A DNA stretch of 56,717 nt. It comes from an uncultured Planctomycetales bacterium (GTDB lineage: Bacteria; Planctomycetota; Planctomycetia; Isosphaerales; Isosphaeraceae). A program made the position numbers and the translations under genes. Under the pieces are notes generated by a model. That model made no database searches. It was not told where the DNA came from and saw nothing but the letters and a program-made list of their open reading frames with translations. Below are positions 6,103-28,832 of the stretch, piece by piece (position 1 is the stretch's first letter; each line of letters begins with the position of its first letter). The stretch lies in NCBI GenBank assembly GCA_903926465.1, contig CAIYJE010000070.1:1-56717 (forward strand), written 5' to 3'.

Positions 6103-6104
6103 CC

Positions 6105-7922
6105 ATGGATACCGAAGAAAAGAAACCAACCGAAGGCTTTGTGAAGTCGTTCACGCGACTTGAAAAACACTTCCTCAGGCCGTATCGCTGGACCTTTACG
6201 CTGGCGCTCGGCGGGCTGCTGGGGCAGTCGGCGCTCATGCTGCCAATCCCGCTGCTCCAGGGCTGGATGGTCGATCGCCTGGTGAACTTCATGGGGCACA
6301 AAGACAGCTTGCCCGAAAGTGCACGCACCGAGTTGAGCCGGGGCCTGTTGCTGGCACTGGTGGTGATGATTGTCTGCCACTTGCTGCGGGCTGTGCTTTC
6401 GTGGTGGGTGAGTGATACCACGGGCCGGGTGAGCCAGGAGGTGGTGGTGGCCTTGCGCACCGCCCTGCACTCCAAGCTAATGCGCCTTCCGATGGCCTAT
6501 TTTGACACCCAGCAGACAGGCCGGTTGATGGCCCGCGTGACCAGTGACGTGGGCTCAATCCTGAGCTTTGTTAACAGCGGCCTGCTGCAACTGATCAACG
6601 ACCTGATCCTGGCATTCGGGATTGCGTTTGTGCTGGTAACCTTGGACTGGCGGTTGGCCCTGGTCGCATTGGTGGTGGTGCCGTTATACGCGGTGAATCA
6701 GAACCTGTTCTCAGCCAAGATTCACAAGTTGTCGCTGGGCATCCGGGCGCAGATTTCGGCGATTTACGCGTTGCTCAGTGAGCGGGTCTCGGCCGTGCGG
6801 GTGGTGCGCTCGTTTGCGCGTGAAGACGCGGAGCTTGCCTCGCTCGATGCCCGGATTGACGAGCATCGCCGCCTGAGCTGGCAGAACACCAAGGTGAACT
6901 CTTATTTGGGTGTGCTGGCCACCATGATCAGCGGCCTGGGTACGGTAATTGTGCTGGCGCTCGGGGCCTGGTTTGTGGGTCAGGGAAGCTTGACCGTGGG
7001 CGGCCTGCTGGCATTTTACTCTCTGGTGGGGCAGCTTTACGGACCGATTGTGCGGCTCACTCAGTTTCAGGCCACAGCCCAGGCCACGTCCATCTCGATT
7101 GAGCGGCTGTTTGAAGTGTTCGGGGAGCCGGAACCGGTTTCCGACCGTGCCGATGCCCTGCCCATCCAGCGGCCACGTGGGGGGATTGAGTTCCGGGACG
7201 TGCGGTTTGGGTATCTGCCGGAAGGGCCCGATATTCTCAACGGCATTGATCTTGAGATTGAACCGGGAACGATGCTGGGGGTGCTGGGCCCCAGCGGAGC
7301 GGGCAAGAGCACCCTGCTGGCGCTGGCCGCGCGCATTTATGACGTGGCCGAGGGCCAGGGCGCGGTTCTGTTCGATGGTGAGGATGTGCGAGATCTCAAG
7401 AGTGACGACCTCCGGCGTGCCGTGGCGCTGGTGCCCCAGCAGGCGTTACTCTTCGAGGGAACGATCCGATCGAACCTGGCCTATGCGGTGGCCAATGCCA
7501 CCGACGCCATGCTCTGGAAGGCGCTGGAACTGGCCGATCTGGCTCGCACGGTGCGCGCCATGCCCCAGGGGCTGGATACTCCGGTCGGGGAACGCGGCCA
7601 GTCTCTTTCTGGCGGCCAGCGACAGCGGATGGCCCTGGCCCGGGCCTTGGTGGCCAACCCGATGGTCTTGCTGCTCGATGACTGCACCAGCGCGCTCGAT
7701 GCCGAGACCGAGTCCCGGATTCAAGATGCGCTGGTGGAGCACCTGCCGGGCCGGACCCGGGTGGTGGTGTCTCACAAGGCGGCCTCGATTCGCCGGGCCG
7801 ACCAGATCATTGTGCTGGATCAGGGCGGAATCATCGAGCGTGGCACGCATGACGAGTTACTGGAACTGGGCGGCCACTACGCGGATAACTTTCTAGCCCA
7901 GACCGAGGCCCTGACGGTTTAG
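6105..7922 (+). CDS. ABC exporter half-transporter, subunit 2
   Basis: Second fused exporter of equal size. The transmembrane domain begins near FTLALGGLLGQSALMLPIPLL and includes the typical FDTQQTGRLMARVTSDV coupling region. The ATPase has Walker A GPSGAGKST (about residue 395), signature LSGGQRQR and Walker B VLLLDDCTSALD. The residue after Walker B is Asp-Cys rather than Glu, so the catalytic glutamate is missing: this would be the degenerate site of a heterodimer with the preceding gene. The ATG at 6105 was chosen; a TTG at 6099 overlaps the stop of the first gene. Switch histidine present (VVSHKAAS). Confidence 0.92.
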   Translation: MDTEEKKPTEGFVKSFTRLEKHFLRPYRWTFTLALGGLLGQSALMLPIPLLQGWMVDRLVNFMGHKDSLPESARTELSRGLLLALVVMIVCHLLRAVLSWWVSDTTGRVSQEVVVALRTALHSKLMRLPMAYFDTQQTGRLMARVTSDVGSILSFVNSGLLQLINDLILAFGIAFVLVTLDWRLALVALVVVPLYAVNQNLFSAKIHKLSLGIRAQISAIYALLSERVSAVRVVRSFAREDAELASLDARIDEHRRLSWQNTKVNSYLGVLATMISGLGTVIVLALGAWFVGQGSLTVGGLLAFYSLVGQLYGPIVRLTQFQATAQATSISIERLFEVFGEPEPVSDRADALPIQRPRGGIEFRDVRFGYLPEGPDILNGIDLEIEPGTMLGVLGPSGAGKSTLLALAARIYDVAEGQGAVLFDGEDVRDLKSDDLRRAVALVPQQALLFEGTIRSNLAYAVANATDAMLWKALELADLARTVRAMPQGLDTPVGERGQSLSGGQRQRMALARALVANPMVLLLDDCTSALDAETESRIQDALVEHLPGRTRVVVSHKAASIRRADQIIVLDQGGIIERGTHDELLELGGHYADNFLAQTEALTV

Positions 7923-8028
7923 TTGGGTCGCGTTGGTTCATGGGTAGCCTGCTTCGATTGTGATCGTGCGTCAGCCCATTCCGCCCATAGCACCTGAGTG
8001 TTGAAGCAATTCTCCGAACCGTGTCAGC

Positions 8029-9189
8029 CTATGCTGGTCGGCGCCAGTTCGCGTAACAGACGCATGGCCAGTAAAGCAAGGCGATGGCAATGACCCAGAA
8101 GAGATAAGTCACGGCCAGGCTATTGCCGTACCCGTCCGGTGAATCCGCCAGAAACCGGAATAACCAGTCGATCGGAAAGCCCTGGAACCAGGCCACGATC
8201 ACGGCGAGCGAATGCACGAGCGGCCACTGGAGTAGATAAAAGAACAGGGGTGACCGGCCGAAGACGAGCAACGGTTGCCCGGCCCGACCCAGGCCGCCAT
8301 CAAGAACGGTTAAGGCCAGCAGCGCAGGGCCGATCGTCATCAACAGAAATAATAGCGATGGTGGATACTTCTGGCAGTTGAGAAATGCCATGACTGTACC
8401 CAGGGTACTGGCTTGCGGAGTCCAAGGGTCGGGATCTCCATAAACGTTCAACCACCTCAGAATCAAAAAACCACTAATGGTACTCCATCCCAGCATTTGC
8501 AGGATCGGTTGCCGCTGCTCGCTGGGTTTCGTGAACAACGGCCCCATCGCGTACCCACATGCCATCAGGCCAATCCAGGGAACAAGCGGGTACAGGAGCA
8601 AGATTGGTAGGCCACCGATGCTGCGGAATCCGCTCACATGGAGTAGGTCCCAGAGGGCCGAGAGATATTTCCCTTGCACCTGGACGCCATCGAAGAGGTT
8701 ATGCCCGCCGATCACTCCAAGGCCGATCACTCCAACCATGGTCCGAGGCAGATGGATCAAGACCGCAAGCGAGATCATGGACCAGCCGATTGCCCACAAA
8801 ACCGTGCCGAGCAGAGCTTGAGGGTAGGTGAAAAACATGGTCACGTTCACCCAGGTTTGCTCAAGAATGATCAACATCAGCCCGCGCGTTAGCAAATGAC
8901 GAGACTGTTCCCCCAGGGTCCGGTTCCTCCCCCACAGGAACGCACTTACGCCGGCGAGCAGTACAAAAGTTGGGGCACAGAAATGGGTTACCCATCGCGT
9001 GAAAAATGCCGCAGGTGTCGTAACCGCCAGGTTGGTCGGATCAAGGTCGCTGTTTCCGAAATATGCGCGAACATGGTCGAGTACCATCAAAACCATGACC
9101 AGGCCCCTGAGTAAGTCGATAGATGCGACTCGAATGGAAGGCGTTGGCACGTCTGGGTCTGGGGAGACACTCTCAGTTGCGTGCTTCAT
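8029..9189 (-). CDS. DUF1624-type multispanning membrane protein (acyltransferase-like)
   Basis: The N-terminal part reads RVASIDLLRGLVMVLMVLDH, then FCAPTFVLLAGVSAFLWGR: the signature of the DUF1624/heparan-alpha-glucosaminide N-acetyltransferase-like family. About ten hydrophobic helices follow, including LLFLLMTIGPALLALTVLDGG and FFYLLQWPLVHSLAV. Family members are inner-membrane proteins thought to acylate sugars across the membrane, but most bacterial ones are not characterised. The ATG at 9189 follows GGAAGG. The sulfotransferase upstream on the same strand is 55 bases away and may be co-transcribed. Confidence 0.85.
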   Translation of the reverse strand: MKHATESVSPDPDVPTPSIRVASIDLLRGLVMVLMVLDHVRAYFGNSDLDPTNLAVTTPAAFFTRWVTHFCAPTFVLLAGVSAFLWGRNRTLGEQSRHLLTRGLMLIILEQTWVNVTMFFTYPQALLGTVLWAIGWSMISLAVLIHLPRTMVGVIGLGVIGGHNLFDGVQVQGKYLSALWDLLHVSGFRSIGGLPILLLYPLVPWIGLMACGYAMGPLFTKPSEQRQPILQMLGWSTISGFLILRWLNVYGDPDPWTPQASTLGTVMAFLNCQKYPPSLLFLLMTIGPALLALTVLDGGLGRAGQPLLVFGRSPLFFYLLQWPLVHSLAVIVAWFQGFPIDWLFRFLADSPDGYGNSLAVTYLFWVIAIALLYWPCVCYANWRRPA

Positions 9190-9243
9190 TGCGAGAGGCC
9201 TTCCTATCCATCAAGAGACGATACCCCTGGTTGTGGCTTGGTT

Positions 9244-10134
9244 TCAGATCTCGAGCGAGGTGAGTGGCAAGCCGCTGAGCTGGCGAGCGAGCGTGACTTC
9301 CTGGCGAAAGTGCTCCAGTAATTTCTGCCTGACAGCAGCGGGTAAGTCCCTGGAGGGCGCGGCTGTTGAGAACGGCAGAAGAGCCAGGTTTCGCAGCGTT
9401 TCATAGACCGTAAACGGAAGCAGGCGTTTTGAGGTACTCAGCCATGATGATTGGAGGATTCGGACACCGGTCGTACTGGGAAACCGGCGACGCTTGCCTT
9501 CAAAAACTCTGCGCTGAAAAGCAGGAGAACGAAATTCGGGATCGACCCCCAGGAACTGAAAAATCTCACGGAGCGTACGTTCGCGATCGTGGTCGAGCGC
9601 GGCGGATTCTACGACGTGGATTGACGCTTTTGGGTAGTATTCGAGAATCGTTTTCAGTTGAGATCCGTAATCCGAAAAGTATCGAAAGACCGCGTAACGG
9701 GGATCGGCTACGAATTCCGCGAATGTCTCCGGGGCCGAGGTGGCATTGAGCCGCTCCATGAGGTAGTGAGACCACAACCGGTCCAGTGGTTCTCGGACCA
9801 GAAGCAGAATCCGGGCCTCTGGAATGATCAGACGCATACGTTCCACCACAAGTGGTAGCCAGTTCGCTTGTACGTAACCGGGTGAGATTTCCCCACAGAC
9901 CCGTTTGGTGGTCACAAAGTGACTGCGGTACCAGTTGATCCCGCGGCCCCAGTTGGTCCCTTTCGATATAGGCATGGTGGGTGTTGCGGCTTCTTCACCC
10001 ATAAAGAAGTTCAGTTCCTTGGGGCGTGAGACGTGCACATCGGGATGTTGTGAAAGATAGTAGTGAAGACTCGTCGTTCCGCACTTGACAGACCCCACCA
10101 CAATGAAATCCGGCAGTCGTCCGCATTTACTCAT
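9244..10134 (-). CDS. Sulfotransferase (PAPS-dependent)
   Basis: Transfers sulfate from PAPS to a carbohydrate or small-molecule hydroxyl. The 5'-phosphosulfate loop is VGSVKCGTTSLHYYLSQHP (residues 13-31); the 3'-phosphate site is the segment LLLVREPLDRLWSHYLM. A basic loop near the C terminus (VFEGKRRRFP) matches the family's end region. Start at ATG 10134, preceded by AAAGG eight bases away; an in-frame upstream start at 10209 would add 25 unlikely residues. Cytoplasmic. It lies beside a Mur-ligase-like enzyme, methyltransferases and an adenylating enzyme, suggesting decoration of a polymer or secondary metabolite. Confidence 0.9.
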   Translation of the reverse strand: MSKCGRLPDFIVVGSVKCGTTSLHYYLSQHPDVHVSRPKELNFFMGEEAATPTMPISKGTNWGRGINWYRSHFVTTKRVCGEISPGYVQANWLPLVVERMRLIIPEARILLLVREPLDRLWSHYLMERLNATSAPETFAEFVADPRYAVFRYFSDYGSQLKTILEYYPKASIHVVESAALDHDRERTLREIFQFLGVDPEFRSPAFQRRVFEGKRRRFPSTTGVRILQSSWLSTSKRLLPFTVYETLRNLALLPFSTAAPSRDLPAAVRQKLLEHFRQEVTLARQLSGLPLTSLEI

Positions 10135-10812
10135 GACTGGACCTTTGGTTATGTGAATCGCAAGCCTGTTTTTTAGACTGTGAACCGTCTGCCTGTTCCC
10201 GTGAGTCATGAGTGCACGACTGTAGTGGATCTGGAGATTTTATGAAATTTTCATGCGTTGTGAAGTACATTCCTTTTGGTGACGATGCCGTTTGTCAGGC
10301 GAGGTATTTGAAGAGTCTTACTAACCATGCGTCCAGGTTTCTGTGTTCCGTTTTGGATTTCGAGAGGCCGCTTATTGATGATTGTTTGAGGTGTCTTATT
10401 TTCAAGGCGTTCACCGGAGCCACCAAGGTCTCCAGATTGTCGAAGACTTGGATGGAGGACAGCCGTCTCTCGCTATCGTTGGATTCGGGTCAGAAATCAA
10501 GGCTGTCCGGGCCACACTCTGAAACCTGTCACTGAATGATCAATGGCGATCTGGCCATTTTCATGCCAAAGACCTGGGATGGGTGCCGAGTTTCAAAACC
10601 AGGATAATCGACGATCATCGCGATTTTTCAGAACTTCAGTCGACAGTCGTGCGTAATGTCCGTAATTTAAGACCAGTCTACATCAGCCAATGTTTGACCT
10701 GGGCCTCAAGTTTGATACTTTGTGATGTGCATGCGTTTTCTAATCATGGCAAACTTGCTGGAATGAGATTGGATAACTGCGGCTGCAACAGGGTTGGAGG
10801 GTTGGAATTGAC
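10135..10812. other. Lower-GC 680-base stretch without a confident gene
   Basis: This divergent gap between the sulfotransferase and the MurF-like gene is visibly richer in A and T than its surroundings. The only candidate is a short open frame (see 10242-10535). No repeat, IS fragment or tRNA was recognised. Divergent promoters must lie here, but I cannot place them with confidence. Confidence 0.5.
10242..10535 (+). CDS. Possible small protein, unknown
   Basis: A 97-residue frame starting ATG at 10242 with a fair ribosome site (CTGGAG six bases upstream). It begins KFSCVVKYIPFGDDAVCQAR and contains five cysteines. No family is recognised. Support is limited to the ribosome site and the length. 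It could equally be chance in an AT-richer spacer or a decayed gene. Confidence 0.25.
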   Translation: MKFSCVVKYIPFGDDAVCQARYLKSLTNHASRFLCSVLDFERPLIDDCLRCLIFKAFTGATKVSRLSKTWMEDSRLSLSLDSGQKSRLSGPHSETCH

Positions 10813-18330: not shown

Positions 18331-19545
18331 TCAGGTGCTGGCGGTGTTGCGGTTCAGACAGCCGGAAATGACGCGACGGGCGGCCTCGACCGAGTGTTCG
18401 CGTTCCACCCATTGATGAGCTTGCTCCGTGAGGTGCTGGCGGAGTTGGGTGTCTGTCGCCAGTCGAAGGCAGGCGGCGGCAAATTCCTCGGGAGTCTCGG
18501 CAATCAACAGGTGCTCGCCGCTGGTCACAGCCAGTCCCTCGGCCCCTTTGGCGGTGGAGACCACGGGGGTCCGGTGCATCAATGCTTCCAGGATCTTGAT
18601 CCGGGTTCCACTGCCGGCCCTTAACGGAACCACCAGCATGCCGGCGGCCGCATATTCGGGAGCCAGATCGGTTACGGCGCCGGCCACGGTCACGCCGGGT
18701 GTTGCAGTAAGTGCCTGAACGCGATCCGATCGACCCATGCCAACCACGCGGAACGCCATCTCGGCATCAACCTCGCGGATCAGCGGCAGGATTGAGCGGG
18801 CGAAGTGCAGAATGGCATCGTCATTGGGCAGATAGCTGAGCGTGCCCACAAACAGCATCTGTTTGGGGTTAGCGGTCGTACCGCTGGCTGCGGATAAGTT
18901 TGGCTTCCGCACGACGTTGGGCAGGTGGGTAAACGTGCGACCAGGATATTGTTGTGCCAACGCGCGGCAGTCGTTGGGGCTGGCCAGAAGCAGATGCTGA
19001 AACTTCGTCACCAGCACCCGACGAAACAGGCTGATCCGCGGCACGGCGCTGCGAACCGATTCGGCTCTGGTTGTATCGCCCGCGGCGTTGTGGAGCGACA
19101 CAAACTGTTCTTTGGCGTTGGCGTCATCATCGTCAAGGTCCAAGATGGTGATGGGCGGCCCAGGAACGGTGAGATCCAGACAGCTCAGAGCCGAGGGGGC
19201 CACATGCTGTCTGAAGGTATAGACCACATCCAGGGTTGATCCAGGTTCTTGGCACTGGATGAAATTGCGTACCAGTGACTTGATCTCGCCGATCCGGTTC
19301 AGCGAAACGGTGAAGTAGGCCGCGGCCCGGTCACGGGCCCAGTCTTCACGCACAAAATGGACGGCCTTGCCGGCCTCATCACGGCCCAGCACGATCGGCC
19401 GACCAGCTTCGCTATCCCAGACGGTGTGGACCACGATCACGGGATAGAGCGATGCGAGAACTTCCAGCGCCACGCTGGCGCGCATCATCGAGCCGCCGCC
19501 GGTGGGATAGGGAAGAAATGGCGTGATGTAGAGGCAGTACTTCAT
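18331..19545 (-). CDS. Glycosyltransferase family 4
   Basis: GT-B fold enzyme. The N-terminal domain starts KYCLYITPFLPYPTGGGSMMR, the glycine-rich acceptor loop. The C-terminal donor domain has QMLFVGTLSYLPNDDAI, VVGMGRSDRVQAL and VVPLRAGSGTRIKILEALMHRTPVVST, where the E of the EX7E-like region (KILEAL) is present. It probably adds a sugar from a nucleotide donor. Its ATG overlaps the stop of the upstream GT2 gene by four bases (ATGA). That gene in turn overlaps the PqqD-HprK fusion, so the three form one operon, with this gene last. Confidence 0.9.
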   Translation of the reverse strand: MKYCLYITPFLPYPTGGGSMMRASVALEVLASLYPVIVVHTVWDSEAGRPIVLGRDEAGKAVHFVREDWARDRAAAYFTVSLNRIGEIKSLVRNFIQCQEPGSTLDVVYTFRQHVAPSALSCLDLTVPGPPITILDLDDDDANAKEQFVSLHNAAGDTTRAESVRSAVPRISLFRRVLVTKFQHLLLASPNDCRALAQQYPGRTFTHLPNVVRKPNLSAASGTTANPKQMLFVGTLSYLPNDDAILHFARSILPLIREVDAEMAFRVVGMGRSDRVQALTATPGVTVAGAVTDLAPEYAAAGMLVVPLRAGSGTRIKILEALMHRTPVVSTAKGAEGLAVTSGEHLLIAETPEEFAAACLRLATDTQLRQHLTEQAHQWVEREHSVEAARRVISGCLNRNTAST

Positions 19546-20222
19546 GGGCCACCCGTTGCCAGGCCACGCCGCCTGGCCAGAAGCCAGGCCATGGCCCGTG
19601 GATAGTCGGCAATGGCCGTGCGGTCACGCGTGGTATTGTGTGCGTGGACACGGCGTTTGAAAAGCAGTTCGGGCAGAATCTTGGTTGAGAGACCCAGCGA
19701 TTGCGTCCACCCATACCAGGCAATAAATTCACCGCTCCGAAAATCTGGAAACAGCCCCGCCCGTTCAAAAACCTCTTTGCGTGTGAGCATGCTCGAACAA
19801 ATCGGGGTGTCCAGGGGCGTTGTTCGGCAGGGGAACACGCCGGTAGGATCGCTAAACTCCACGCACTGCGTGAAAACCATCTGGAGCTCTGGTTGCTGGT
19901 CCAGGATGGTGCACTGCCGTTTCAGTTTTCCAGGCATCCAGAGGTCATCGGCATCCAGAAATGCGATCAGGGGTGCCGTAGCTCGAAGCAGACCAGCGTT
20001 CCGGGCGCTGGGGAGCCCCTGTCTGGGCTCCTCAATCAATTCCACGGTTGAGCCGTAGGTTGTGGTGACAAGGGACACGGAATTGTCGGTGGAATTGTTG
20101 TTCACCACCAGAATCTGGAGTGTGAGCGCGGGATCGCTTTCAAGCTGAAGCAACACGCTGTCGATTGCCTGGCAAATGAACCGTGCGCCGTTATACACGG
20201 GAATGATCACGCTCACCTTCAT
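19542..20222 (-). CDS. Glycosyltransferase family 2 (GT-A)
   Basis: The start was set at the ATG at 20222, where KVSVIIPVYNGARFICQAI opens the GT-A domain; upstream in-frame residues belong to the preceding gene's region. ILVVNNNSTDNSVSLV, GLPSARNAGLLRATAPLIAFLDADD (the DxD metal site) and RKEVFERAGLFPDFRSGEFIAWY support the family. It probably transfers a sugar to a lipid or protein acceptor. It overlaps both neighbours by four bases (ATGA), so it is translationally coupled in the PqqD-kinase operon. Confidence 0.9.
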   Translation of the reverse strand: MKVSVIIPVYNGARFICQAIDSVLLQLESDPALTLQILVVNNNSTDNSVSLVTTTYGSTVELIEEPRQGLPSARNAGLLRATAPLIAFLDADDLWMPGKLKRQCTILDQQPELQMVFTQCVEFSDPTGVFPCRTTPLDTPICSSMLTRKEVFERAGLFPDFRSGEFIAWYGWTQSLGLSTKILPELLFKRRVHAHNTTRDRTAIADYPRAMAWLLARRRGLATGGP

Positions 20223-22156
20223 CGGTTGATGACCTGCGTCACGGCCAGCGGGATCTGTGTGGGATCGCTTCCCAGATGAAGGATGTACGCGGGGAGTTTT
20301 TCCACGAGGGACACAATTCGAGCACAATCGTGCTGGGTGGATGCCGGCAGTTGCCCCACGGTGCTGGGCAAGAGTGCCAGCAACGCCTCGGACCGAGGGC
20401 ACCCCTCAATGCGGGTATCGGGTCCAGAGTGCAGGCGAGGAATGACGAGGGCCCGTAGTGGCAGGCCCGCCACGGTCCGGCCTGGCCAGACGTCGGAGAC
20501 CGCAAAGACCCCTTTGCCCTCTCCGCCCGATTCAAAGCTATCGGAATTGATCGACTTGAGCCGGAGTTCGGGTAACCGCCCGAAGTCGTTCTGGTTCGTC
20601 AGTTTTCCAGTGCCATACAGGCTGTGAATCCATGGCTGCGCGTGATCTGAAACACAATCTGCCAGGCAGTAGTCATCGCCCACGAATTTCAGTCCGGCCG
20701 CGGTGCACAGCAAAGAGGTGGTGGACTTACCGGCTCCCCCTTTGCCCACCAGTAGCACGCCGCCCTGCGCATTTCCCACGGCGGCACCATGCACAGATTG
20801 CAGGCCCAGCGCTCCAAACCATTCATGGAGCGCAAACCGAAAGGGTGAACCAATCTCCCAGTAGGGATACGGGTGGTCATCCCCTTTGAAGACCCAGGCC
20901 CGTCCCGTTTGGAAATCGACCACGCTCAGCAGGTCGGGACCAGGGTTGAAGATCGCCGACACCTCTTCGCTATGCAGTTCCAGCACTTCGCCGCGTGGCC
21001 CGCTGGCCTGCTTCCAGTTCCGCGCCAGCTTGAGCACCAGATGGGCGAGTGCCGGCGACCTTGGCAATGTCGACCCGTTCCAGACATGGATCGTCAGGCC
21101 ATGGTGTGCGGCCCCCGAGTCGGCCACCAACAGATGTTCAAGCGCTTTCAAGAGCTGCTGAGATTGCTGCCCAGGCAGGGAACGCACCCGGACCGAGTGG
21201 CCACCCATTCGGTAATGCGTTTGATGCATGCTGCCGTGGGTCTCGGCGGCATCCTTGAAAAACTGATCCAGGCCGTCAAGGATGCCACGGGTCCGGTTGC
21301 TGGTGGCCAACCGTGGCGGTCGGGTGACAGGCAGCCAGGGGCGAATCTGGTCTTCAAGGTCCCTGAAGAGCGTGATGCTGGAACTGTCATCCATCATGGG
21401 CATAGAGAGTTGCGCAGCGGTTTCGGGCACGGTTTGGGTGAGCCCTGCGTCTGTCAGCGTGGCTGCGAGCGGTTCTGTGACCCGGACTGATCCATGCAGG
21501 AGTTGCGGCCACCACGCCTGGTTTCCACCCAGAGTGCAGTAGAGCCCCTGATCCCGGTTCACCACAATCGTTTGCCCGTCCATGTTCGCGGTCAGCAGAT
21601 CCAGGCCGGGGATCAGAGCCAGGACCCGCCCTTGCGGCACGGGAGTGTGAAGCTGGGAACGGTTCGCCCCGGTTCCGGGGGCCGGGGCGGAGAGTTCAGG
21701 GTCAGGGTTTCGGTGGGGCCAACCTGCAACTTCATCAACCTCATGCACGGGGTCGAGCAGAAACAGTTCCTGCAGGTCATTGTGAGCGCTGAGACTTGGC
21801 GGGGTATAAGCGGCCTGCCCCTGGGGTGCCAGCCTGGTTGCCGGCTGGAACGGTTCGGGGACACAAGCAGTGATCAGATCCAGTTGTTTTAATTGCGCAA
21901 CAAATGGTTGCAGGTCTTTGGCAATGGTCGCGCTGGGCACGCGGTAGTGATCTGCCAGATAGGTAACGACATCCTGGACCAAGGCACCCGTGGTTCCGAA
22001 GGCGACCCATGCGGTCCCGCCCACTTCGGACAGGCTGTAGTAACTCCCATTCCGAAGGTCGACCACCACAACCTCAGGATCAAAGCTCTGATGGATCACA
22101 TCAGGCTCATTGATCCGGAATCCCAGTTCATCCGGCATCGATATATACTCCTGCAC
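20219..22156 (-). CDS. PqqD-domain/HPr-kinase-like fusion protein
   Basis: 645 residues. Residues about 12-95 form a PqqD-like RRE domain (INEPDVIHQSFDPEVVVVDL, NGSYYSLSEVGGTAWVAF), the fold that binds leader peptides in RiPP pathways. Residues 135-149 hold the motif DPVHEVDEVAGWPHR. About 180-245 look like a second, degenerate PqqD domain (IVVNRDQGLYCTLGG). About 315-645 are HprK-like, with P-loop VGKGGAGKSTTSLL (470-483) and FVGDDYCLAD (491-500). HprK-related proteins of this type are known with PqqD partners near polysaccharide and lasso-peptide loci, where kinases act on peptides or small molecules. No HPr gene is visible here. It overlaps the following GT2 gene and probably lies after the nucleotidyltransferase gene in one transcript. 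Confidence 0.85.
   Translation of the reverse strand: MQEYISMPDELGFRINEPDVIHQSFDPEVVVVDLRNGSYYSLSEVGGTAWVAFGTTGALVQDVVTYLADHYRVPSATIAKDLQPFVAQLKQLDLITACVPEPFQPATRLAPQGQAAYTPPSLSAHNDLQELFLLDPVHEVDEVAGWPHRNPDPELSAPAPGTGANRSQLHTPVPQGRVLALIPGLDLLTANMDGQTIVVNRDQGLYCTLGGNQAWWPQLLHGSVRVTEPLAATLTDAGLTQTVPETAAQLSMPMMDDSSSITLFRDLEDQIRPWLPVTRPPRLATSNRTRGILDGLDQFFKDAAETHGSMHQTHYRMGGHSVRVRSLPGQQSQQLLKALEHLLVADSGAAHHGLTIHVWNGSTLPRSPALAHLVLKLARNWKQASGPRGEVLELHSEEVSAIFNPGPDLLSVVDFQTGRAWVFKGDDHPYPYWEIGSPFRFALHEWFGALGLQSVHGAAVGNAQGGVLLVGKGGAGKSTTSLLCTAAGLKFVGDDYCLADCVSDHAQPWIHSLYGTGKLTNQNDFGRLPELRLKSINSDSFESGGEGKGVFAVSDVWPGRTVAGLPLRALVIPRLHSGPDTRIEGCPRSEALLALLPSTVGQLPASTQHDCARIVSLVEKLPAYILHLGSDPTQIPLAVTQVINR
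21710..21754 (-). other. Coding segment for shared DPVHEVDxxxGWPHR motif, copy in the kinase fusion
   Basis: Residues 135-149 of the PqqD-HprK fusion read DPVHEVDEVAGWPHR. Eleven of 15 positions are identical with the small PqqD protein (28149-28193), and one more is V/I. The flanks are otherwise different in sequence. Confidence 0.8.
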
Positions 22157-22215: not shown

Positions 22216-23409
22216 CTAGTCGAGCATCTGGTCCTTGGCGTGCGCCAGCGTTCGGAGTTCTTGCCAGTGCATGGGTGTCAGACTCAGGGCCGAGCGCGCG
22301 AGTCGAGGCACACGCCGCCAGAATGTCCCCATTCTCAGATAGCGGTTCCATCCCAGAAACGCTCTGGAAACGACCTGGTGCCAGGCGCGACGACTGCCGA
22401 GTGCCGAAAGGTCGGCATTGATTGGCTCCGATCTCAGTTGCCGGGCATACAGGGTGGCCAGGTTTCTGGCGGCCGGGCTGGTGGTGTCCATTCCGGTGCA
22501 AGGGTTGGAACCGCCGGACTCACCGACGATCAGGGCCATGGCACCCAAGGGGGCGGAAAGTTTCCAGGATTGCGCATAGTCCAGGGCCACGGAGAGTTCT
22601 GCGGGAGACTGCGCCAGCAGGCGAAACCAGTCGGCCGCATCGAGCACATCTCTGGCCATTCGGTCGGGTACGAAGTTATTCCGGAGCGCGTGGTGGACCG
22701 AGAGCAGCAGCCCGAACGCAGGGCAGACCACCGGCACCGAGAACCCAAGCAGATTCACTTGCCGCGCGGTTGCAAGCAGCTTTGCGGTGTCGAATCGCCC
22801 GAGTTTCCAGTGTAAATCCAGTGCGTTTCCCCGCGGGTTGGTCAGGCTTGTGGCCAGATTGCCGGCGGAATCGGGCGAGCTTTTCAGAGACGCAATGTAG
22901 CTTGTCAGGTCAAGTGCTGCGGCCTCTCGCCGATAGCCGGCCTGTTCCAGCCGTTCCAGGGCCCTTGGTAGGTCCTGGTCACTGATCAGCAGATCCACAT
23001 CCTGCACCATCCGGCTCCTGGCACCGGTCTGGCTATGAAGCCAGGCGATCGATGCAAATCCCTTGAAGCCAACGGCCGGGATACCGTCATCGTTCAACCG
23101 TTGGATGGCTTCGCAACCGGCCCGGATGCAGAGCGTTGAGCGGAAAAATAGAGTTCCGGCTTCCTGGCCCAGGCCCTTGGCTTCAGCCGGTGTTAACCTC
23201 AGATCGATCGCGGCCACCCGCTCGGCCAGGGCTGGAATCACATTCCAGTCGCGACAGATCTGGAACACGGTTGGCCACGCGCCAGCCTCTGAGATCTCAT
23301 CGGCCACTGCTCTGGCAAGTTCGTGCTCAGGGTGCGTGAACTCAGCATGAACGGGGGTCAGTAGCAAACGCATGACCCACTGTCTTGCTCGCTGCTGGGG
23401 GCAATCCAT
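22216..23409 (-). CDS. Nucleotidyltransferase family protein (PF14907-like)
   Basis: GIPAVGFKGFASIAWLHSQTGAR followed by SRMVQDVDLLISDQDLPRALERL is the core of the uncharacterised nucleotidyltransferase family PF14907. Lys116-Gly117 forms the KG step and Asp137/Asp139 the metal-binding DxD (numbering from the ATG at 23409). Downstream, NALDLHWKL supplies the third acidic site. Such proteins often occur with PqqD and HprK-like genes; a transferred nucleotide and its acceptor are not known. The start is ambiguous: GTG at 23481 and ATG at 23373 are in the same frame; 23409 has CAGG nine bases upstream. It lies 59 bases before the PqqD-HprK fusion on the same strand. Confidence 0.83.
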   Translation of the reverse strand: MDCPQQRARQWVMRLLLTPVHAEFTHPEHELARAVADEISEAGAWPTVFQICRDWNVIPALAERVAAIDLRLTPAEAKGLGQEAGTLFFRSTLCIRAGCEAIQRLNDDGIPAVGFKGFASIAWLHSQTGARSRMVQDVDLLISDQDLPRALERLEQAGYRREAAALDLTSYIASLKSSPDSAGNLATSLTNPRGNALDLHWKLGRFDTAKLLATARQVNLLGFSVPVVCPAFGLLLSVHHALRNNFVPDRMARDVLDAADWFRLLAQSPAELSVALDYAQSWKLSAPLGAMALIVGESGGSNPCTGMDTTSPAARNLATLYARQLRSEPINADLSALGSRRAWHQVVSRAFLGWNRYLRMGTFWRRVPRLARSALSLTPMHWQELRTLAHAKDQMLD

Positions 23410-23815
23410 GGTCTTGACCTGAAGGCAGGCGAGGGCTGAAATTCCTAGGTAAGCACGGATCCTCACTTTAAAGGAGGGCACTTTTTACATTGTACGAGAT
23501 TGCGGAGATCTGGTGCATTACCCACCAGAAACTTCCTGGCTCTTGGCCCGTTGTTTCAGCCAGGCAATCTCAAAACCGCCCGATCCAGCGGGATGGCGGC
23601 TTGAGGGAGACTGAGAATTTGTGTTTTTTAATCGAGTCTCCAGGCGTTGAGATTTAACCACGAGGAATGCCTTGTTGGGGGCTGGGCCAAACTGGGGCAT
23701 GGACTGGCTTCTCATGTCACCGGGCTGGGCTATCATGAATCGGGTCTTGGGTTTTCAAAACCAATGGCCGTGCGGTTTCCACCCCTTTCTCTTCCCCAGT
23801 ACCTGGTTGACCTGT
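23410..23815. other. Divergent intergenic region of the PqqD-kinase locus
   Basis: It separates the nucleotidyltransferase gene (minus) from its inactive-looking relative (plus). A minus-strand TACAAT at about 23488-23493 could be a -10 box for the former. A small minus-strand open frame (23518-23700) lies just upstream of the nucleotidyltransferase and is listed on its own. No repeats were noticed. Confidence 0.4.
23518..23700 (-). CDS. Small open frame, possible short peptide gene
   Basis: A 60-residue frame on the minus strand from ATG 23700, preceded by GAGAAG at about eight bases. It begins PQFGPAPNKAFLVVKSQRLE and ends with the basic, glycine-terminated tail WLKQRAKSQEVSGG. It sits 36 bases or more upstream of the nucleotidyltransferase, where RiPP-like precursor genes are often found. 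No leader motif of a known RiPP class (for example YxxPxL of lasso peptides) is visible. It may be chance. Confidence 0.25.
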   Translation of the reverse strand: MPQFGPAPNKAFLVVKSQRLETRLKNTNSQSPSSRHPAGSGGFEIAWLKQRAKSQEVSGG

Positions 23816-24864: not shown

Positions 24865-26289
24865 TCACGCATTGACCTGATCTCGGGGGATCAAGGGGGC
24901 AGGAATTTGGGCGGGATCCAGGCCCAATTGCACGGCGGCCTGAAATTCTTGACCTGCGGAGTCGTGTTTTCCCGCGTGTCGTGCGATCAGGCCAGACCAG
25001 TACCGCAGGTGTGGGCTTTCCGGGTAGGTGTTGCGATAGTGGATCACCCCCCCTTCCCCTTGGGCCAGCACGGCTGACGAATTCGCGATCGTTTGATCGG
25101 CGTCGGCAACAGCCTGGGGAGTCGAAGCCGAGAATCCTTCGAGGCTGATGGCGAACGGCCCGGCCAGGTCACCCAGGCTCAGGACAAACTTGTATGCGGC
25201 AGGTCGATTACGCCCAGGCCAGGGCGTGGGCCGCCGCCTGGGAAGAGCTGCGGTCGATTCAAAAAGGTCACGCAGGCGGGCACTGTTACGTACGGGGTCA
25301 AAGTTTTCGTGGGCGAAGTTTCGGGCCGCAGCCCCCAGCCGCCGCCGGAGCGGCGCATCCATTGCCAGTCGATCAATGGCGCGGGCGTAGTCAGCTTCCG
25401 AGTCACACACGATCCCCGTTTGATCGGTTTGGATCAGTGCTGCGGTTCCATTTGTGGCCAGAACTACCGGTGGGATACCTGCCCACATGGCTTCCTGGAT
25501 CGATTTTTCGCTGGTGGCATACGTATCTTCAGCCAGCGGATAACCGAACACATCCAGTTCTGAAAAAGCCGTGTTCAGGTCCTCCACATGGCCGTGGAAC
25601 CGGACCCGTTCACCGGCACCCAGAGCCGTGAACCGGCGTTTCAATTCAGGGCCCCAGGCCCCGTCTCCGTACACCTCAAAGCGCACCTCGGGGCTACGAA
25701 CGGCCGAGCAGAGTTCCGCGAACCGAGGGTGCATTTTGGTTGGGTCAACCAACCCCAGGTATCCTACGCGGACCCCTTGGTGTTCTCGGTGCAAAAACCC
25801 TTCCAGACGAGTCATGTCGGCCAGTGAGGGGATAAAGACGACGGGACAGTTGGCCTGCCTGGCGGCCTGTACCGCGGCCGTTGGGCCACTGGCGGGGCTG
25901 GAAATCACCAGGGCGTCGGCAAGCAGGCCCAGTTCACGCACAAGGACCTGGGGCCGGCTCGATCCGCTAATTGCGCATCGGATTAGCAGCCGTGCCGGAG
26001 GCAGATCTTCACGTAAAAGATCGAGTAGCCGTGGATGGTTCCAGTAGGTGACCTCCACCAGGTCGGCGGCTTCGATGGCGGCTCTGAGCGTGTGGAGATT
26101 CGGGGCCGGCAGCAGCTTGATCCCGAGCTTTCTGGCCCTGAGTAACAGCGGCGCGGAGATGGGTGGATCCAGCACGGCCACCTGATGGTCGGTTGTCAAG
26201 CCGGCATTGCGCCAGGCGGCGGCCATGGCCAGCAGATGGCGTTCAGGTCCGCCGCCCAGGAAGCGGGGAATCACGTGCAGCAGCTTCAT
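24865..26289 (-). CDS. Glycosyltransferase family 4, with C-terminal extension
   Basis: The N terminus KLLHVIPRFLGGGPERHLLAMA is the glycine-rich GT4 loop. The donor-binding half contains VRVGYLGLVDPTKMHPRF, FEVYGDGAWGPEL, RVRFHGHVEDLNTAFSELDVFGYPL and SEKSIQEAMWAGIPPVVLAT with the conserved glutamate. Residues after about 345 form an unusual tail (SLGDLAGPFAISLEGFSAS, then HLRYWSGLIARHAGKHDSAGQEFQAAVQLGL) reminiscent of a single tetratricopeptide unit. It overlaps the upstream GT2 gene by four bases (ATGA). Confidence 0.9.
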   Translation of the reverse strand: MKLLHVIPRFLGGGPERHLLAMAAAWRNAGLTTDHQVAVLDPPISAPLLLRARKLGIKLLPAPNLHTLRAAIEAADLVEVTYWNHPRLLDLLREDLPPARLLIRCAISGSSRPQVLVRELGLLADALVISSPASGPTAAVQAARQANCPVVFIPSLADMTRLEGFLHREHQGVRVGYLGLVDPTKMHPRFAELCSAVRSPEVRFEVYGDGAWGPELKRRFTALGAGERVRFHGHVEDLNTAFSELDVFGYPLAEDTYATSEKSIQEAMWAGIPPVVLATNGTAALIQTDQTGIVCDSEADYARAIDRLAMDAPLRRRLGAAARNFAHENFDPVRNSARLRDLFESTAALPRRRPTPWPGRNRPAAYKFVLSLGDLAGPFAISLEGFSASTPQAVADADQTIANSSAVLAQGEGGVIHYRNTYPESPHLRYWSGLIARHAGKHDSAGQEFQAAVQLGLDPAQIPAPLIPRDQVNA

Positions 26290-26975
26290 GGCTGGTGGGT
26301 TCCGCGGTTGCGTTCAATGAAGCGCCGCGCCACGGTTAGCAGTTCGCGGCGGTACGCGGCCACATCGCTTGAAAGGCTGGTTCCTCGCGCCCCTTTCCAG
26401 AGCACGACTTGTTCGATCTGGACCACAGGATAGGCTGATTGTTGCAGTCTCACAAACCAGTCACTATCGGTACCAATGGCCAGCGACTCGTCGAACACCC
26501 CGATTTTCTCGAATGCCTCCCGCCTTGCCAGCAACGCCCCGGGTGTGAACCCAGGAACCGGTTGGCCGATCCTGCTCCGTTGCGCGGCGGTTGCGGTGGC
26601 GCTGCCAATCGCTTCCAGGATCACCCGGCCAATCACGGCGAGCGCGTGCGGGTTGGATTCAAAGGCCTGAAGTCTGAGTGTCAGGGCGTTCTCAGCCCAA
26701 CGATCGTCACCGTCGCAAAAGGCGATCCAGGGGCTGCGGCTTTTTTGGATCGCCTGGTTGCGGGCCGCGGCTAATCCGCGGCCTTGCTGATGGATCAGAC
26801 GGACATCTGGGTAGCGTTCGGCAATCTCCAGGGTGCCATCCGTGGAGCCGCCGTCAATCACCAGGATCTCAGCCGGGCGTGGACTCTGCGCGCGTACGCT
26901 TTCCAGGGCCGTCGCAACATGGGCGGCGGCATTCCTGACAGGCACGATTACCGAGACCGGGGCCAATGAATTCAT
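26286..26975 (-). CDS. Glycosyltransferase family 2
   Basis: GT-A enzyme of 229 residues. PVSVIVPVRNAAAHVATALES opens the fold; ILVIDGGSTDGTLEIAERY, GRGLAAARNQAIQKS and WIAFCDGDDRW (the DxD-equivalent metal site) follow, then GALLARREAFEKIGVFDESL and TDSDWFVRL of the acceptor side. It is the middle of three glycosyltransferase genes overlapping by four bases each, which points to stepwise assembly of one oligosaccharide. Confidence 0.92.
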   Translation of the reverse strand: MNSLAPVSVIVPVRNAAAHVATALESVRAQSPRPAEILVIDGGSTDGTLEIAERYPDVRLIHQQGRGLAAARNQAIQKSRSPWIAFCDGDDRWAENALTLRLQAFESNPHALAVIGRVILEAIGSATATAAQRSRIGQPVPGFTPGALLARREAFEKIGVFDESLAIGTDSDWFVRLQQSAYPVVQIEQVVLWKGARGTSLSSDVAAYRRELLTVARRFIERNRGTHQP

Positions 26976-28054
26976 GGTGATTGTGCTTTTGCAGCCTCAC
27001 GCATGGTCTCAAGCAACTGGTTGAACAGGGGTGAAGCGACCCCCTGGGCGACCAGATGTTCGAGCGCGGTCAGTGACTCGGCCGCCACAGCGAACGGAGT
27101 AAGCGGGTGCCGCGCTCGGGGGTCGAGTGGCAAGGTCATGCCTCGGCCGATCATGCGCGCCATTCGCCATGCCATGGACGGAGCGTGGCAGCCGGCCATC
27201 AATTCCACCAGCAGAGCCGCGCGATCGTAATTCGGTTCGAGTTCGTGGCGCTCGCCAGCCCCAGGCAGTCGGGCTTCGCCCACCGGGATCAGAGCCCTGA
27301 AATCCTGTTCAAAGGTGGTCCGGGTGGCCTCGCGACCAATCCCGGTATTGCGCACCAGGTTGACGGACGAAACAATGGCGGTGTCGCCCGCTATCACCCT
27401 TCGCAACGAAAAGATTACATCCCAGGCCACCAACTGGCCACGTCTGAAGGCTTGCAAGGCCAGGGTGTAATGCTCGGTCAAGAGGGGGTCCAGGTTGAGC
27501 CTTGCGATTTCAAGGGCCGCCTGATCGGGATCGCCTGCCAGGTTGGTCCCCTGGATCCGACGCCAGGCGGCGGCCGTGCCGGCCCAGCCCCAGATGCTAC
27601 CCCGGTGGGCGTGGAGATGATCTTGGCAGGCCGCACCCCACTGTCCCAGGGGATTTGTCCCACTGATCAGGCCAACACGTTCGTGGTCTTTGTAACGCTC
27701 AAGCATTGCCGCGGCCCAGGGGAAAAAACTGGGGTGCGGCAGGATGTCGTCTTCCAGAACAATGGCTTGGTCGGCTCGCGTGAATACCCAGTCTAGACCC
27801 GATTGAACCCGCCTGTCACAGCCAAGGTTCGATTCCGAGAACTCTCGCTCGATGGTGCAGGGCCAGTCGATTGCACCCAGCGTTGCGCGTACCGCGTGGC
27901 AGCGCTGGGTGTCATCCGGATGGGTTGGTCTGGGTCCGTCCGCAATCACCAGAAGCCGGCTGGGGCGGATCCACCGGAGCCTGGCGATCAATTGCTGGGC
28001 CTGCTGGGGGCGGTTGAAGAGGATCAGAACGACGGGGGTCTGGAAGTCTTGCAT
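26972..28054 (-). CDS. GT2-like glycosyltransferase of the HlpA type
   Basis: TPVVLILFNRPQQAQQLI, LLVIADGPRPTHPDD, ESNLGCDRRVQSGLDWVF and QAIVLEDDILPHPSFFPWAAAMLERY match the family often annotated as glycosyltransferase or haemolytic protein HlpA-like. LEDD is the metal-binding DxD-type site. VNLVRNTGIGREATRT is another family landmark. The function is probably sugar transfer in surface glycan synthesis; the haemolysin name is historical. Follows the small PqqD gene by 76 bases and overlaps the next GT2 gene by four bases. Confidence 0.87.
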   Translation of the reverse strand: MQDFQTPVVLILFNRPQQAQQLIARLRWIRPSRLLVIADGPRPTHPDDTQRCHAVRATLGAIDWPCTIEREFSESNLGCDRRVQSGLDWVFTRADQAIVLEDDILPHPSFFPWAAAMLERYKDHERVGLISGTNPLGQWGAACQDHLHAHRGSIWGWAGTAAAWRRIQGTNLAGDPDQAALEIARLNLDPLLTEHYTLALQAFRRGQLVAWDVIFSLRRVIAGDTAIVSSVNLVRNTGIGREATRTTFEQDFRALIPVGEARLPGAGERHELEPNYDRAALLVELMAGCHAPSMAWRMARMIGRGMTLPLDPRARHPLTPFAVAAESLTALEHLVAQGVASPLFNQLLETMREAAKAQSP

Positions 28055-28130: not shown

Positions 28131-28559
28131 TCAGTTTGGGCTGTCCTGGCGATGGGGCCAGCCCTCCGCGGGGTCAACTTCGTGAATGGGGTCCATGGAA
28201 ATGATGTCGGCAATCTGGTCGTACCGTTCCATGGCTGGGGCAACGAACCGATCGGGGCAGGCAATGTCCTGGATTGGGGCGGGTGCCTGATCAGCCAGTG
28301 TCCCCTGCCGCACCATCTCATTTTGCTCAAGTTGTTCGAGAAATCGGAGCGTGGGTTCGGCCGCCTCTGGCCCGAACCGCGTCACCACCTCTTGCACCAC
28401 AGTTTCAAACGTACCGCCGGTGGCCAGCCGTTGCCACAGCCAGGGGCCGATTCCCGTGAACAGGAAGAGGTGCCCTCGTTCCGAGTCGATGAGTACGGTC
28501 TCACCTTCCAGGGTATCGTGAGGGAAACGATCGGCATTTGTGAAGAAGATGTTGGCCAT
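28131..28559 (-). CDS. Small PqqD-family (RRE) protein with C-terminal DPIHEVD motif
   Basis: 142 residues from the ATG at 28559 (a GTG at 28640 is in frame). Residues about 3-88 form a PqqD fold: GETVLIDSERGHLFLFTGIG aligns with the PqqD strand pair, then FETVVQEVVTRFGPEAAEPTLRFLEQLEQNEMV gives the winged-helix end. After a linker come YDQIADIISMDPIHEVDPAEGWPHR (113-137) and a short tail RQDSPN. The motif DPIHEVDxxxGWPHR recurs in the PqqD-HprK fusion. PqqD domains bind leader peptides; having the conserved segment on the same chain suggests a built-in substrate or docking sequence. It starts the three-glycosyltransferase transcript. Confidence 0.8.
   Translation of the reverse strand: MANIFFTNADRFPHDTLEGETVLIDSERGHLFLFTGIGPWLWQRLATGGTFETVVQEVVTRFGPEAAEPTLRFLEQLEQNEMVRQGTLADQAPAPIQDIACPDRFVAPAMERYDQIADIISMDPIHEVDPAEGWPHRQDSPN
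28149..28193 (-). other. Coding segment for shared DPIHEVDxxxGWPHR motif, copy in the small PqqD protein
   Basis: Residues 123-137 of the small PqqD protein read DPIHEVDPAEGWPHR, five residues from the C terminus. A serine lies at position 140. Compare the copy at 21710-21754. Confidence 0.8.
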
Positions 28560-28832
28560 CAAACGCCCGTCCCAGGGTGCAGAGGTAGGGAATTCTTGAT
28601 CAAGATTCAGGTTACAAGGTTGATCCAGGATTGAGAACACTCAAACGGGTGTGGTTCGGGCTTGGCCCACGCTGAGTTCAAGCGAACCTTGAATGTGAAT
28701 CCGATTATGCTTTACCGGTATCGTACCACTTCACTGGCGTGAGGTTTGGAGTGGCAGCTCAATCGATCCGCACCGGGTCCGTTGGAGCCCACCGAGATTG
28801 GTTGTCTGAGTTCGAGTCTCAATGGCTTGGGG

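Follow-up and report, generated by a model that had tools for sequence, protein, structure and literature searches.

A conserved two-part tail behind PqqD-type RRE domains and its possible role as a precursor-like peptide

Two tailed RRE genes in a glycosyltransferase-rich locus

The window, the whole 56,717-nucleotide stretch of planctomycete DNA analysed here, encodes on its minus strand two proteins in which a PqqD-type RRE domain is followed by the same kind of tail. The smaller protein ends with this tail; in the larger, the tail leads on to an HprK-like kinase. The two genes flank an NTP_transf_5 gene together with glycosyltransferase genes, and the features are listed below.

28131..28640, minus strand: small RRE(PqqD)-tail protein, 169 aa (ORF; PF05402 at 6.2e-8; AlphaFold2 mean pLDDT 82.5)
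28305..28553, minus strand: RRE domain of the small protein, residues 30-112 (family HMM match over 30-112)
28221..28247, minus strand: leader-like segment FVAPAMERY, residues 132-140 (modelled extra strand; fits [FYW]xxPx[LVIFMA])
28149..28193, minus strand: reported motif DPIHEVDPAEGWPHR, residues 150-164, where a presented core would lie (translation; pLDDT 60 for block 151-160)
20219..22156, minus strand: RRE-tail-HprK-like kinase fusion, 645 aa (ORF; HMM matches to RRE at 13-97, tail at 115-150 and kinase at 282-644)
21866..22120, minus strand: RRE domain of the fusion, residues 13-97 (PF05402 and family HMM)
21782..21808, minus strand: leader-like segment YTPPSLSAH of the fusion, residues 117-125 (strand 121-125 in the AlphaFold2 model)
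21710..21754, minus strand: second motif copy DPVHEVDEVAGWPHR, residues 135-149, internal in the fusion (translation; pLDDT below 50 at 134-146 and 148-152)
21485..21598, minus strand: degenerate second RRE-like hairpin of the fusion, around residues 187-224 (RRE HMM over 191-224, i-E 1.9e-4)
20225..21313, minus strand: HprK-like kinase part of the fusion, residues 282-644 (P-loop GKGGAGKS, DDY; family HMM 359 bits, with this kinase itself in the profile)
22216..23481, minus strand: NTP_transf_5 nucleotidyltransferase (PF14907 at 4.6e-22)
24865..26289, minus strand: GT4-type glycosyltransferase (PF13692)
26286..26975, minus strand: GT2-type glycosyltransferase (PF00535)
26972..28054, minus strand: unassigned protein of 360 aa, its gene lying between those of the small RRE protein and the glycosyltransferases (no Pfam or NCBIfam match at E 0.1)
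19542..20402, minus strand: GT2-type glycosyltransferase (PF00535 from residue 64); the ORF overlaps the 3' end of the fusion gene and its start is probably further in
18331..19545, minus strand: GT4-type glycosyltransferase (PF13692)

Both proteins qualify as PqqD-fold RREs, with PF05402 scores of 33.3 and 43.2 bits against a cut-off of 23.4. The initial annotation had described a motif common to the two, and this sharing was reproduced. The translations of 28149-28193 and 21710-21754, DPIHEVDPAEGWPHR and DPVHEVDEVAGWPHR, agree at 11 of 15 residues, more than in any of 30 shuffles of the fusion protein; the best 15-mer match to the small protein had 6 identities in 19 shuffles, 7 in nine and 8 in two. 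The serine three residues from the end of the small protein is likewise present, in the C-terminal QDSPN that forms the five residues past the motif. As first described, the motif was real but incomplete, as similarity also extends upstream ([FY]xxPx[LM]xx[YH]). The genome has a third copy on another contig, C35, within a PqqD protein of 140 aa (L003:1483-1905, minus strand) whose gene adjoins a separate kinase gene. A tail profile of 41 rows, both window tails and the L003 tail among them, matched the two window copies at E = 1.7e-19 and 2e-19.

The C35 operon (L182) runs RRE-tail, kinase, GT2, GT2 and NTP_transf_5. Its surroundings encode a proline racemase, a DAO oxidoreductase, a DHDPS-like protein and an aldehyde dehydrogenase, which look like a set for hydroxyproline breakdown. 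The HprK-like label reflects partial PF07475 matches, all below cut-off, together with the P-loop and DDY motifs, which align with those of 27 other kinases. Scores for the window kinase fell short of the cut-offs of both HPr(Ser) kinase families (21.3 of 33.3 bits for PF07475 and 19.4 of 240 bits for TIGR00679); the C35 kinase had no Pfam match at 1e-3 and was linked through the family HMM at 354 bits. Between the tail and the kinase of the fusion, the degenerate hairpin was modelled with strands between residues 187 and 209, at low confidence from 201 onwards.

The 20 window proteins scanned with Pfam yielded no PQQ-enzyme name besides the PqqD domain. Two ABC exporter halves are encoded on the plus strand at 4279-7922, more than 10 kb from the kinase gene. 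Adjoining them, within 4279-10209, are heparan-glucosaminide acetyltransferase-like and sulfotransferase genes, and this segment is possibly part of the same glycan locus.

The tail is widespread, RRE-linked and found with one kinase family

In an alignment of relatives, the full tail spans about 37 residues, [FYW]xxPxLxKYTDMQ[DE]LLLLDP[IV]H[ED]VDExGWP, of which the reported motif is the second half. Relatives were collected by scanning genome contigs with two peptide patterns that covered [LF][QNR]K[YF][TS]D[ML]Q[ED] and LL[LI][LV]DPIH[ED]; the 246 matches comprised 188 confirmed relatives, the best 80 of which were kept, and 58 unconfirmed ones. The genomes concerned are mostly MAGs. The motif is present in these related PqqD proteins: DP[IV]H and GW both occur in 78 of the 80 loci (the best 80 of 188), and the other two keep DPIHEV without the G or the GWP. 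Among the same 80, judged by record title, tailed relatives occur in Planctomycetota, Cyanobacteria, Chloroflexi, Acidobacteria, Nitrospirota, Bacteroidetes, Verrucomicrobia, several proteobacterial groups, Bacillota, Actinomycetota, Gemmatimonadetes and other phyla.

An alignment of 81 rows combined the 78 loci that passed a DP[IV]H...GW filter with three rows from the window's genome. Its invariant columns, in this sample from the best 80 of 188, are the P of FxxP and the D, P, H, G and W of the motif. Because the scan patterns chose loci by their DPIH and TDMQ parts and the rows were filtered on DP[IV]H...GW, conservation of DPIH, TDMQ and GW is partly by construction. The F and P of FxxP lay in neither the scan patterns nor the filter, and [FYW]xxPx[LVIFMA] was found in 81 of 81 rows. 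The aromatic at position 1 is Phe in 72 of 81 rows, where the published motif has Tyr or Trp. The linker between the RRE and the tail is unconserved in these rows.

The link to the RRE was also seen with an HMM of the tail alone, run over sets of 10, 301, 244 and 59 genomes (about 610 different ones) with E <1e-8 counted as strong. All 36 strong matches, 10 of them in genomes picked for a tail and three in the window's own genome, lay in ORFs that also carry an RRE domain, as did a 37th, weaker match (L124). A free-standing precursor with the same motif was not among the 36, and four weak matches without an RRE (L125, L126, L146 and L147) look like chance. The other PqqD-type matches in the window's phylum, 17 of 17, have no tail; 16 of these proteins end 2-14 residues past the domain and one has 48 unrelated residues more. 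Two scans of viral contigs gave no relatives. In a small-genome group from the phylum of G295 (L136-L143), DPIHEV..GW is kept and the FxxP spacing is missing, and two of nine kinase-linked tails (L168 and L169) lack [FYW]xxP. In L107 (...DPIHEVTPAAAP) and L124 (...DPPMPGVMDFPWQEPS), the first half of the tail and the RRE are kept and the second half is changed, as would be expected if the two halves have separate roles.

A kinase HMM match, counted anywhere in the locus and up to 6.8 kb from the tail gene, was present in 65 of the best 80 tailed loci (of 188). Among the 48 of these with at least 8 kb downstream, 42 held a kinase, 36 an NTP_transf_5 gene and 29 an ABC protein, and one held none of the three. 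The initial annotation had asked whether the motif always stands behind a PqqD domain and near an HprK-like gene; every strong match lay behind such a domain, and 6 of the 48 long loci (best 80 of 188) gave no kinase match. The five ABC proteins checked from kinase loci all had ABC_membrane and ABC_tran domains over cut-off, the domains of an exporter.

Several loci have other gene sets. In the loci that are Chloroflexi-type by record title, L100, L090, L078, L079, L087 and L059, tailed RREs occur with an ABC protein and without a kinase or NTP_transf_5 match; in L100 the ABC partner is an importer-type permease, and an AMP-binding/carrier/acyltransferase protein is encoded as well. The tailed RREs of L120, L121 and L122 adjoin an NTP_transf_5-like gene (81-82 bits), with no strong kinase match in their 3-kb loci. 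In the small genomes of another phylum (L138-L142), the kinases that stand beside tailed RREs themselves give a weak RRE match, as the window fusion does between its tail and kinase.

The association was also approached from the kinase, with a kinase profile run over 201 genomes from the phylum of L060 and 246 from that of the window. Each of the nine kinases scoring at least 88 bits had a tailed RRE beside it or fused to it, and none of the 23 scoring 86 bits or less did. The profile contains four of the nine (L150, L164, L165 and L166), which limits the independence of this test. No tail was seen in any of the 20 wider loci taken around 21 of the weaker kinases; 15 of the 20 hold an RRE, which in 14 cases ends 2-10 aa past the domain. 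Two of the 23 small tail-less loci, L171 and L174, had their RRE cut by the locus end, and both are covered by the wider loci. Seven of the nine tail-linked kinases match the profile over nearly its whole length, and the other HprK-like kinases match its C-terminal part only (from position 118 or later). By sequence, tailed RREs co-occur with one HprK-like kinase family.

None of the 41 tails matched an NCBIfam model, apart from one unrelated weak match. The strings DPIHEVD, DPIHDVD, LDPIHEV and LDPIHDV were absent from the literature searched, a body of text to which most subscription papers do not belong. The same literature gave no match for PqqD together with HprK, lasso and kinase, or for RRE together with borosin, fused and 'in cis'. 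One paper, PMC10352776, matched PqqD combined with a C-terminal extension and a leader peptide. According to a 2025 survey (PMC12710340), 21% of PF05402 proteins exceed the size of a discrete RRE without other annotation, and the tailed RREs could be among these. Related literature on RREs includes RRE-Finder (PMC7470986) and the PadeB1 paper (PMC5067487). The tail is real, conserved and undocumented in the searchable literature, and its architecture is a new variant of RRE-guided peptide systems.

A leader-like half and a loosely modelled half

The AlphaFold2 model of the small protein, made from an alignment of 77 sequences, shows a confident RRE, a strand at 136-140 inside FVAPAMERY, a short helix and then a looser end. 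Block 131-140 has a pLDDT of 97. The C-terminal end that holds the motif has block means of 71, 60 and 67, and the N-terminal 20 residues are equally loose. The fusion is modelled with the same extra strand, at 121-125, and with its motif below a pLDDT of 50. The motif had been envisaged, among other roles, as an intramolecular ligand, and a plain strand of the PqqD fold was named as an outcome that would speak against a special role. An intramolecular ligand suits the upstream half, with its confident strand, and does not suit the reported motif, which is loose in both models; a plain strand finds no counterpart in either model, where the motif is not built as one.

Among solved structures, the small-protein RRE is closest in sequence to lasso and LPP RREs and in fold to lasso RREs. 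Some of these structures are complexes with leader peptides; TbiB1 (5v1v) is the best fold match, and the closest folds are lasso RREs of 83-88 modelled residues. The RRE-binding leader motif is given as [Y/W]xxPx[L/V/I/F/A] in PMC13381572. In the PbaB1 complex described there, strand beta-4 and helices alpha-1 to alpha-3 form the cleft that holds this motif, and the sheet is continued by the residues that follow PxL (PMC13381572). The modelled strand at 136-140 covers residues 137-140, which align with L-10 to L-7 of PbaA; in the crystal structure, three of these PbaA residues lengthen the sheet (PMC13381572).

The groove itself can be compared column by column within the best 80 of 188 relatives. 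Columns aligned with the pocket-lining PbaB1 residues Y39, L41, I48, Y69, F83, L87 and L92 are conserved in tailed RREs, the one aligned with L65 is of mixed hydrophobic character, and those aligned with the Trp-holding I44, V71, E75 and Q79 are unconserved. A changed first leader pocket is in line with Phe in place of Trp or Tyr at position 1. With a modelled strand at the matching place and conserved pocket columns, the upstream half of the tail is probably a leader-type RRE ligand in cis whose first pocket has changed. Its placement in the leader groove we infer from the match with known complexes, drawing on pLDDT and DSSP.

The second half of the tail, the one that would be presented, was also checked for acceptor residues. 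The initial annotation had raised a C-terminal serine as phosphate acceptor, and the family does not bear this out: Ser occupies -3 in 6 of 80, and 18 of 80 have a Ser among their last four residues (best 80 of 188). Within DPIH..GWP, Ser or Thr is found in 41 of the same 80, and no Ser, Thr or Tyr is conserved in the presented half. The Y[TS]D position has Ser or Thr in 73 of 81 rows and E, D, G, V, A or N in the rest, in a column that was partly selected (best 80 of 188). An invariant Asp lies 18 residues past the aromatic in 81 of 81 rows (best 80 of 188). LppA has a Tyr at -16 and a phosphorylated Ser3 (PMC13381572); the Asp spacing equals that from Tyr-16 to Ser3 and would fit a pseudosubstrate, as a single coincidence of numbers.

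A role for the motif as a docking tag, also proposed earlier, is weakened in its plain form of kinase docking. The motif is retained by the kinase fusion as well as by loci that gave no kinase match, and L124 lacks IHEVDxxGWP and has a kinase that still scores 232 bits. Since fusion to the kinase has not cost the protein its motif, the motif does not act merely as a kinase recruiter. The presented half may be a cis-substrate or a fixed docking or pseudosubstrate ligand; the enzymes of the locus, being of the kind that modify RRE-presented peptides, favour a substrate.

Separate peptides of the leader type were found at loci with a tail-less RRE. In L183 (the same place as L152), a small ORF at 6250-6453 (MKYEQPLLLEHGALRDVTGTG...) lies on the same strand in the order RRE-precursor-kinase. 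Small ORFs in L185 (7157-7330, ...YQAPKLEV...) and L197 (7591-7701, ...YQTPEVES...) each stand beside a tail-less RRE and an HprK-like kinase. All three discrete YxxP precursors were judged by eye; a strict screen of 20 tail-less loci (196 kb) found two and missed the one in L183. To judge by these ORFs, tail-less loci can have a separate YxxP peptide, once exactly where a fusion would put the tail. The genomes of L183, L185 and L197, from the phyla of L060 and the window, hold possible LPP-like loci outside Bacillota. The strict screen of 78 tailed loci (704 kb; best 80 of 188) gave one candidate, which is implausible. None of 80 candidate YxxP precursors from a looser screen of tailed loci (best 80 of 188) was convincing by eye. 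Neither the 15-34 kb part of the window nor L182 has a convincing small ORF with even the YxxP part.

Peptidases and cyclases were sought as well. For an SpI-type (archaeal-type) leader peptidase, the genome gave no TIGR02228 match and PF10502 only on contig C21; a crude pattern test, S[GNPWHED]SMxP in ORFs of 90-260 aa, found none in the relatives' loci (best 80 of 188). The lasso B2 leader peptidase family PF13471 had one match in the genome, below cut-off, on contig C87, and the six genome matches to the Asn-synthetase-like cyclase family PF00733 lie outside both C70 (the window) and C35. Release of a peptide is unlikely, since these searches turned up no leader peptidase and the kinase fusion carries its copy of the motif inside the chain.

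Known systems and a possible cis-presented peptide

Linear polyphosphorylated peptides (LPPs) of Bacillota, encoded with LppA/K/B/S/D/N, are the nearest comparison. In PMC13381572, their enzyme set comprises an RRE, an HprK-like kinase, an NTP transferase and an MsbA-like exporter, in polysaccharide loci. Tailed loci share with them a discrete RRE (the small protein is RRE and tail only), an HprK-like kinase, an NTP transferase, in many cases an ABC exporter, a glycosyltransferase-rich setting and an RRE ligand of the [Y/W]xxPx[L/V] type. LPP loci differ in having a discrete precursor, YxxPxVLxHQxIxFETxxS, and an SpI-type peptidase, neither of which was found at tailed loci; the tailed peptide is fused to the RRE, fixed and spread over many phyla, whereas that of LPPs is variable and belongs to Bacillota (PMC13381572). 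The HprK-like peptide kinases of the paeninodin type are also P-loop kinases beside an RRE and an NTP transferase, but they phosphorylate a Ser of a separate precursor (PMC13381572), and tailed loci have no conserved Ser.

Of the solved structures, discrete lasso RREs (TbiB1, TfuB1 and PbaB1/PadeB1) stand nearest in sequence, with TbiB1 and TfuB1 nearest in fold too, and they share the leader-binding logic of tailed RREs. Their leaders, by contrast, are separate chains recognised in trans, and they work with a B2 protease and a cyclase; the window's genome has no B2 match over cut-off. In borosins, the peptide is carried at the C terminus of a biosynthetic protein, which is the modifying methyltransferase. 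Tailed proteins resemble them in where the peptide sits and differ in the fusion partner, which is a recognition domain rather than a methyltransferase.

The explanation that we prefer, with belief and doubt about level, is that the tail is a precursor-like peptide fused to its own RRE, its leader-like half docked in cis and its DPIHEVDxxGWP half presented. The first half, [FYW]xxPxLxKY, would occupy the leader groove of the RRE in cis, and the second, LLLLDPIHEVDxxGWP, would extend unbound at the position of a RiPP core, offered to the HprK-like kinase, the NTP_transf_5 protein, the glycosyltransferases and often an ABC exporter. The initial idea of a core peptide behind its own leader-binding domain agrees with this architecture, through the leader-like strand and the discrete YxxP precursors of related loci; its C-terminal serine acceptor does not survive. 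Most likely, the arrangement started from an LPP- or lasso-like phosphopeptide locus in which a discrete precursor gene became joined to the RRE gene next to it, and the peptide sequence would have become fixed after the fusion. Several observations run counter to this explanation. The presented half is fixed across phyla (best 80 of 188), and LPP precursors have variable C termini (PMC13381572); it also offers an HprK-type kinase no conserved Ser, Thr or Tyr, and its release is unlikely. The tails of L136-L143, without the FxxP spacing, and of L168 and L169, without [FYW]xxP, speak against it too, as do Phe at position 1, the unconserved part of the first leader pocket and the six long loci with no kinase match.

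That the locus enzymes modify the presented peptide while it is attached to the RRE is a weaker proposition, towards which we lean slightly sceptical. More tentative again, and on balance rather unlikely as a whole, is a self-contained RiPP-like architecture shared by many phyla, in which the leader would be docked in cis and the fixed DPIHEVDxxGWP would be phosphorylated, nucleotidylated and/or glycosylated without leaving the RRE, and would serve surface-glycan synthesis as a protein-bound carrier or as a cofactor instead of being released as a natural product.

The alternative that survives best, which we regard as possible though doubtful, is a fixed adaptor or pseudosubstrate. The leader-like half would then plug the groove permanently and DPIHEVDxxGWP would be a docking or activating ligand that is never modified, with the invariant Asp perhaps a mimic of a phosphorylated residue. 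A fixed, acidic second half without a conserved hydroxyl agrees with this, as do the Asp 18 residues past the aromatic (81 of 81 rows, best 80 of 188), which has the LppA spacing of PMC13381572 as one match of numbers, and the pairing of tailed RREs with one kinase family, seven of nine members being near-full-length profile matches. However, the motif persists in the kinase-fused protein and in loci without a kinase match, AlphaFold2 leaves it undocked on the kinase (pLDDT <50, a weak test given the shallow alignment), and a pseudosubstrate would leave the kinase without a known substrate.

A removable plug is improbable. The tail would fill the groove of an otherwise unstable RRE until a precursor encoded elsewhere displaced it, which recalls the insolubility of LppB without its leader (PMC13381572), and binding through Phe at position 1 may be weaker than through Tyr or Trp. 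Yet no convincing discrete precursor was found near tailed loci, in a search of the loci themselves, and the fixed DPIHEVDxxGWP half would be left unexplained. Least probable is a purely structural role for the motif within this PqqD subfamily, unconnected with presentation. In its favour, the motif matches the fold in conservation (partly by selection), and all 36 strong matches had an RRE in the same ORF. Against it, the RRE core is modelled with confidence and its closest folds are lasso RREs of 83-88 modelled residues; the motif, like the N-terminal 20 residues, belongs to the most loosely modelled parts of the protein; and L107 and L124 retain the RRE with the motif missing or altered.

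If the tail is indeed a precursor-like peptide presented by its own RRE, then an RRE would need no separate peptide, reader and peptide being one chain, and this would explain the absence of a found precursor at tailed loci. It would define a group of genes that general models label only as PqqD, and would offer a testable substrate or ligand for the HprK-like kinases and NTP_transf_5 proteins of tailed loci. It would also mean that loci with glycosyltransferases in many phyla have preserved one fixed peptide.
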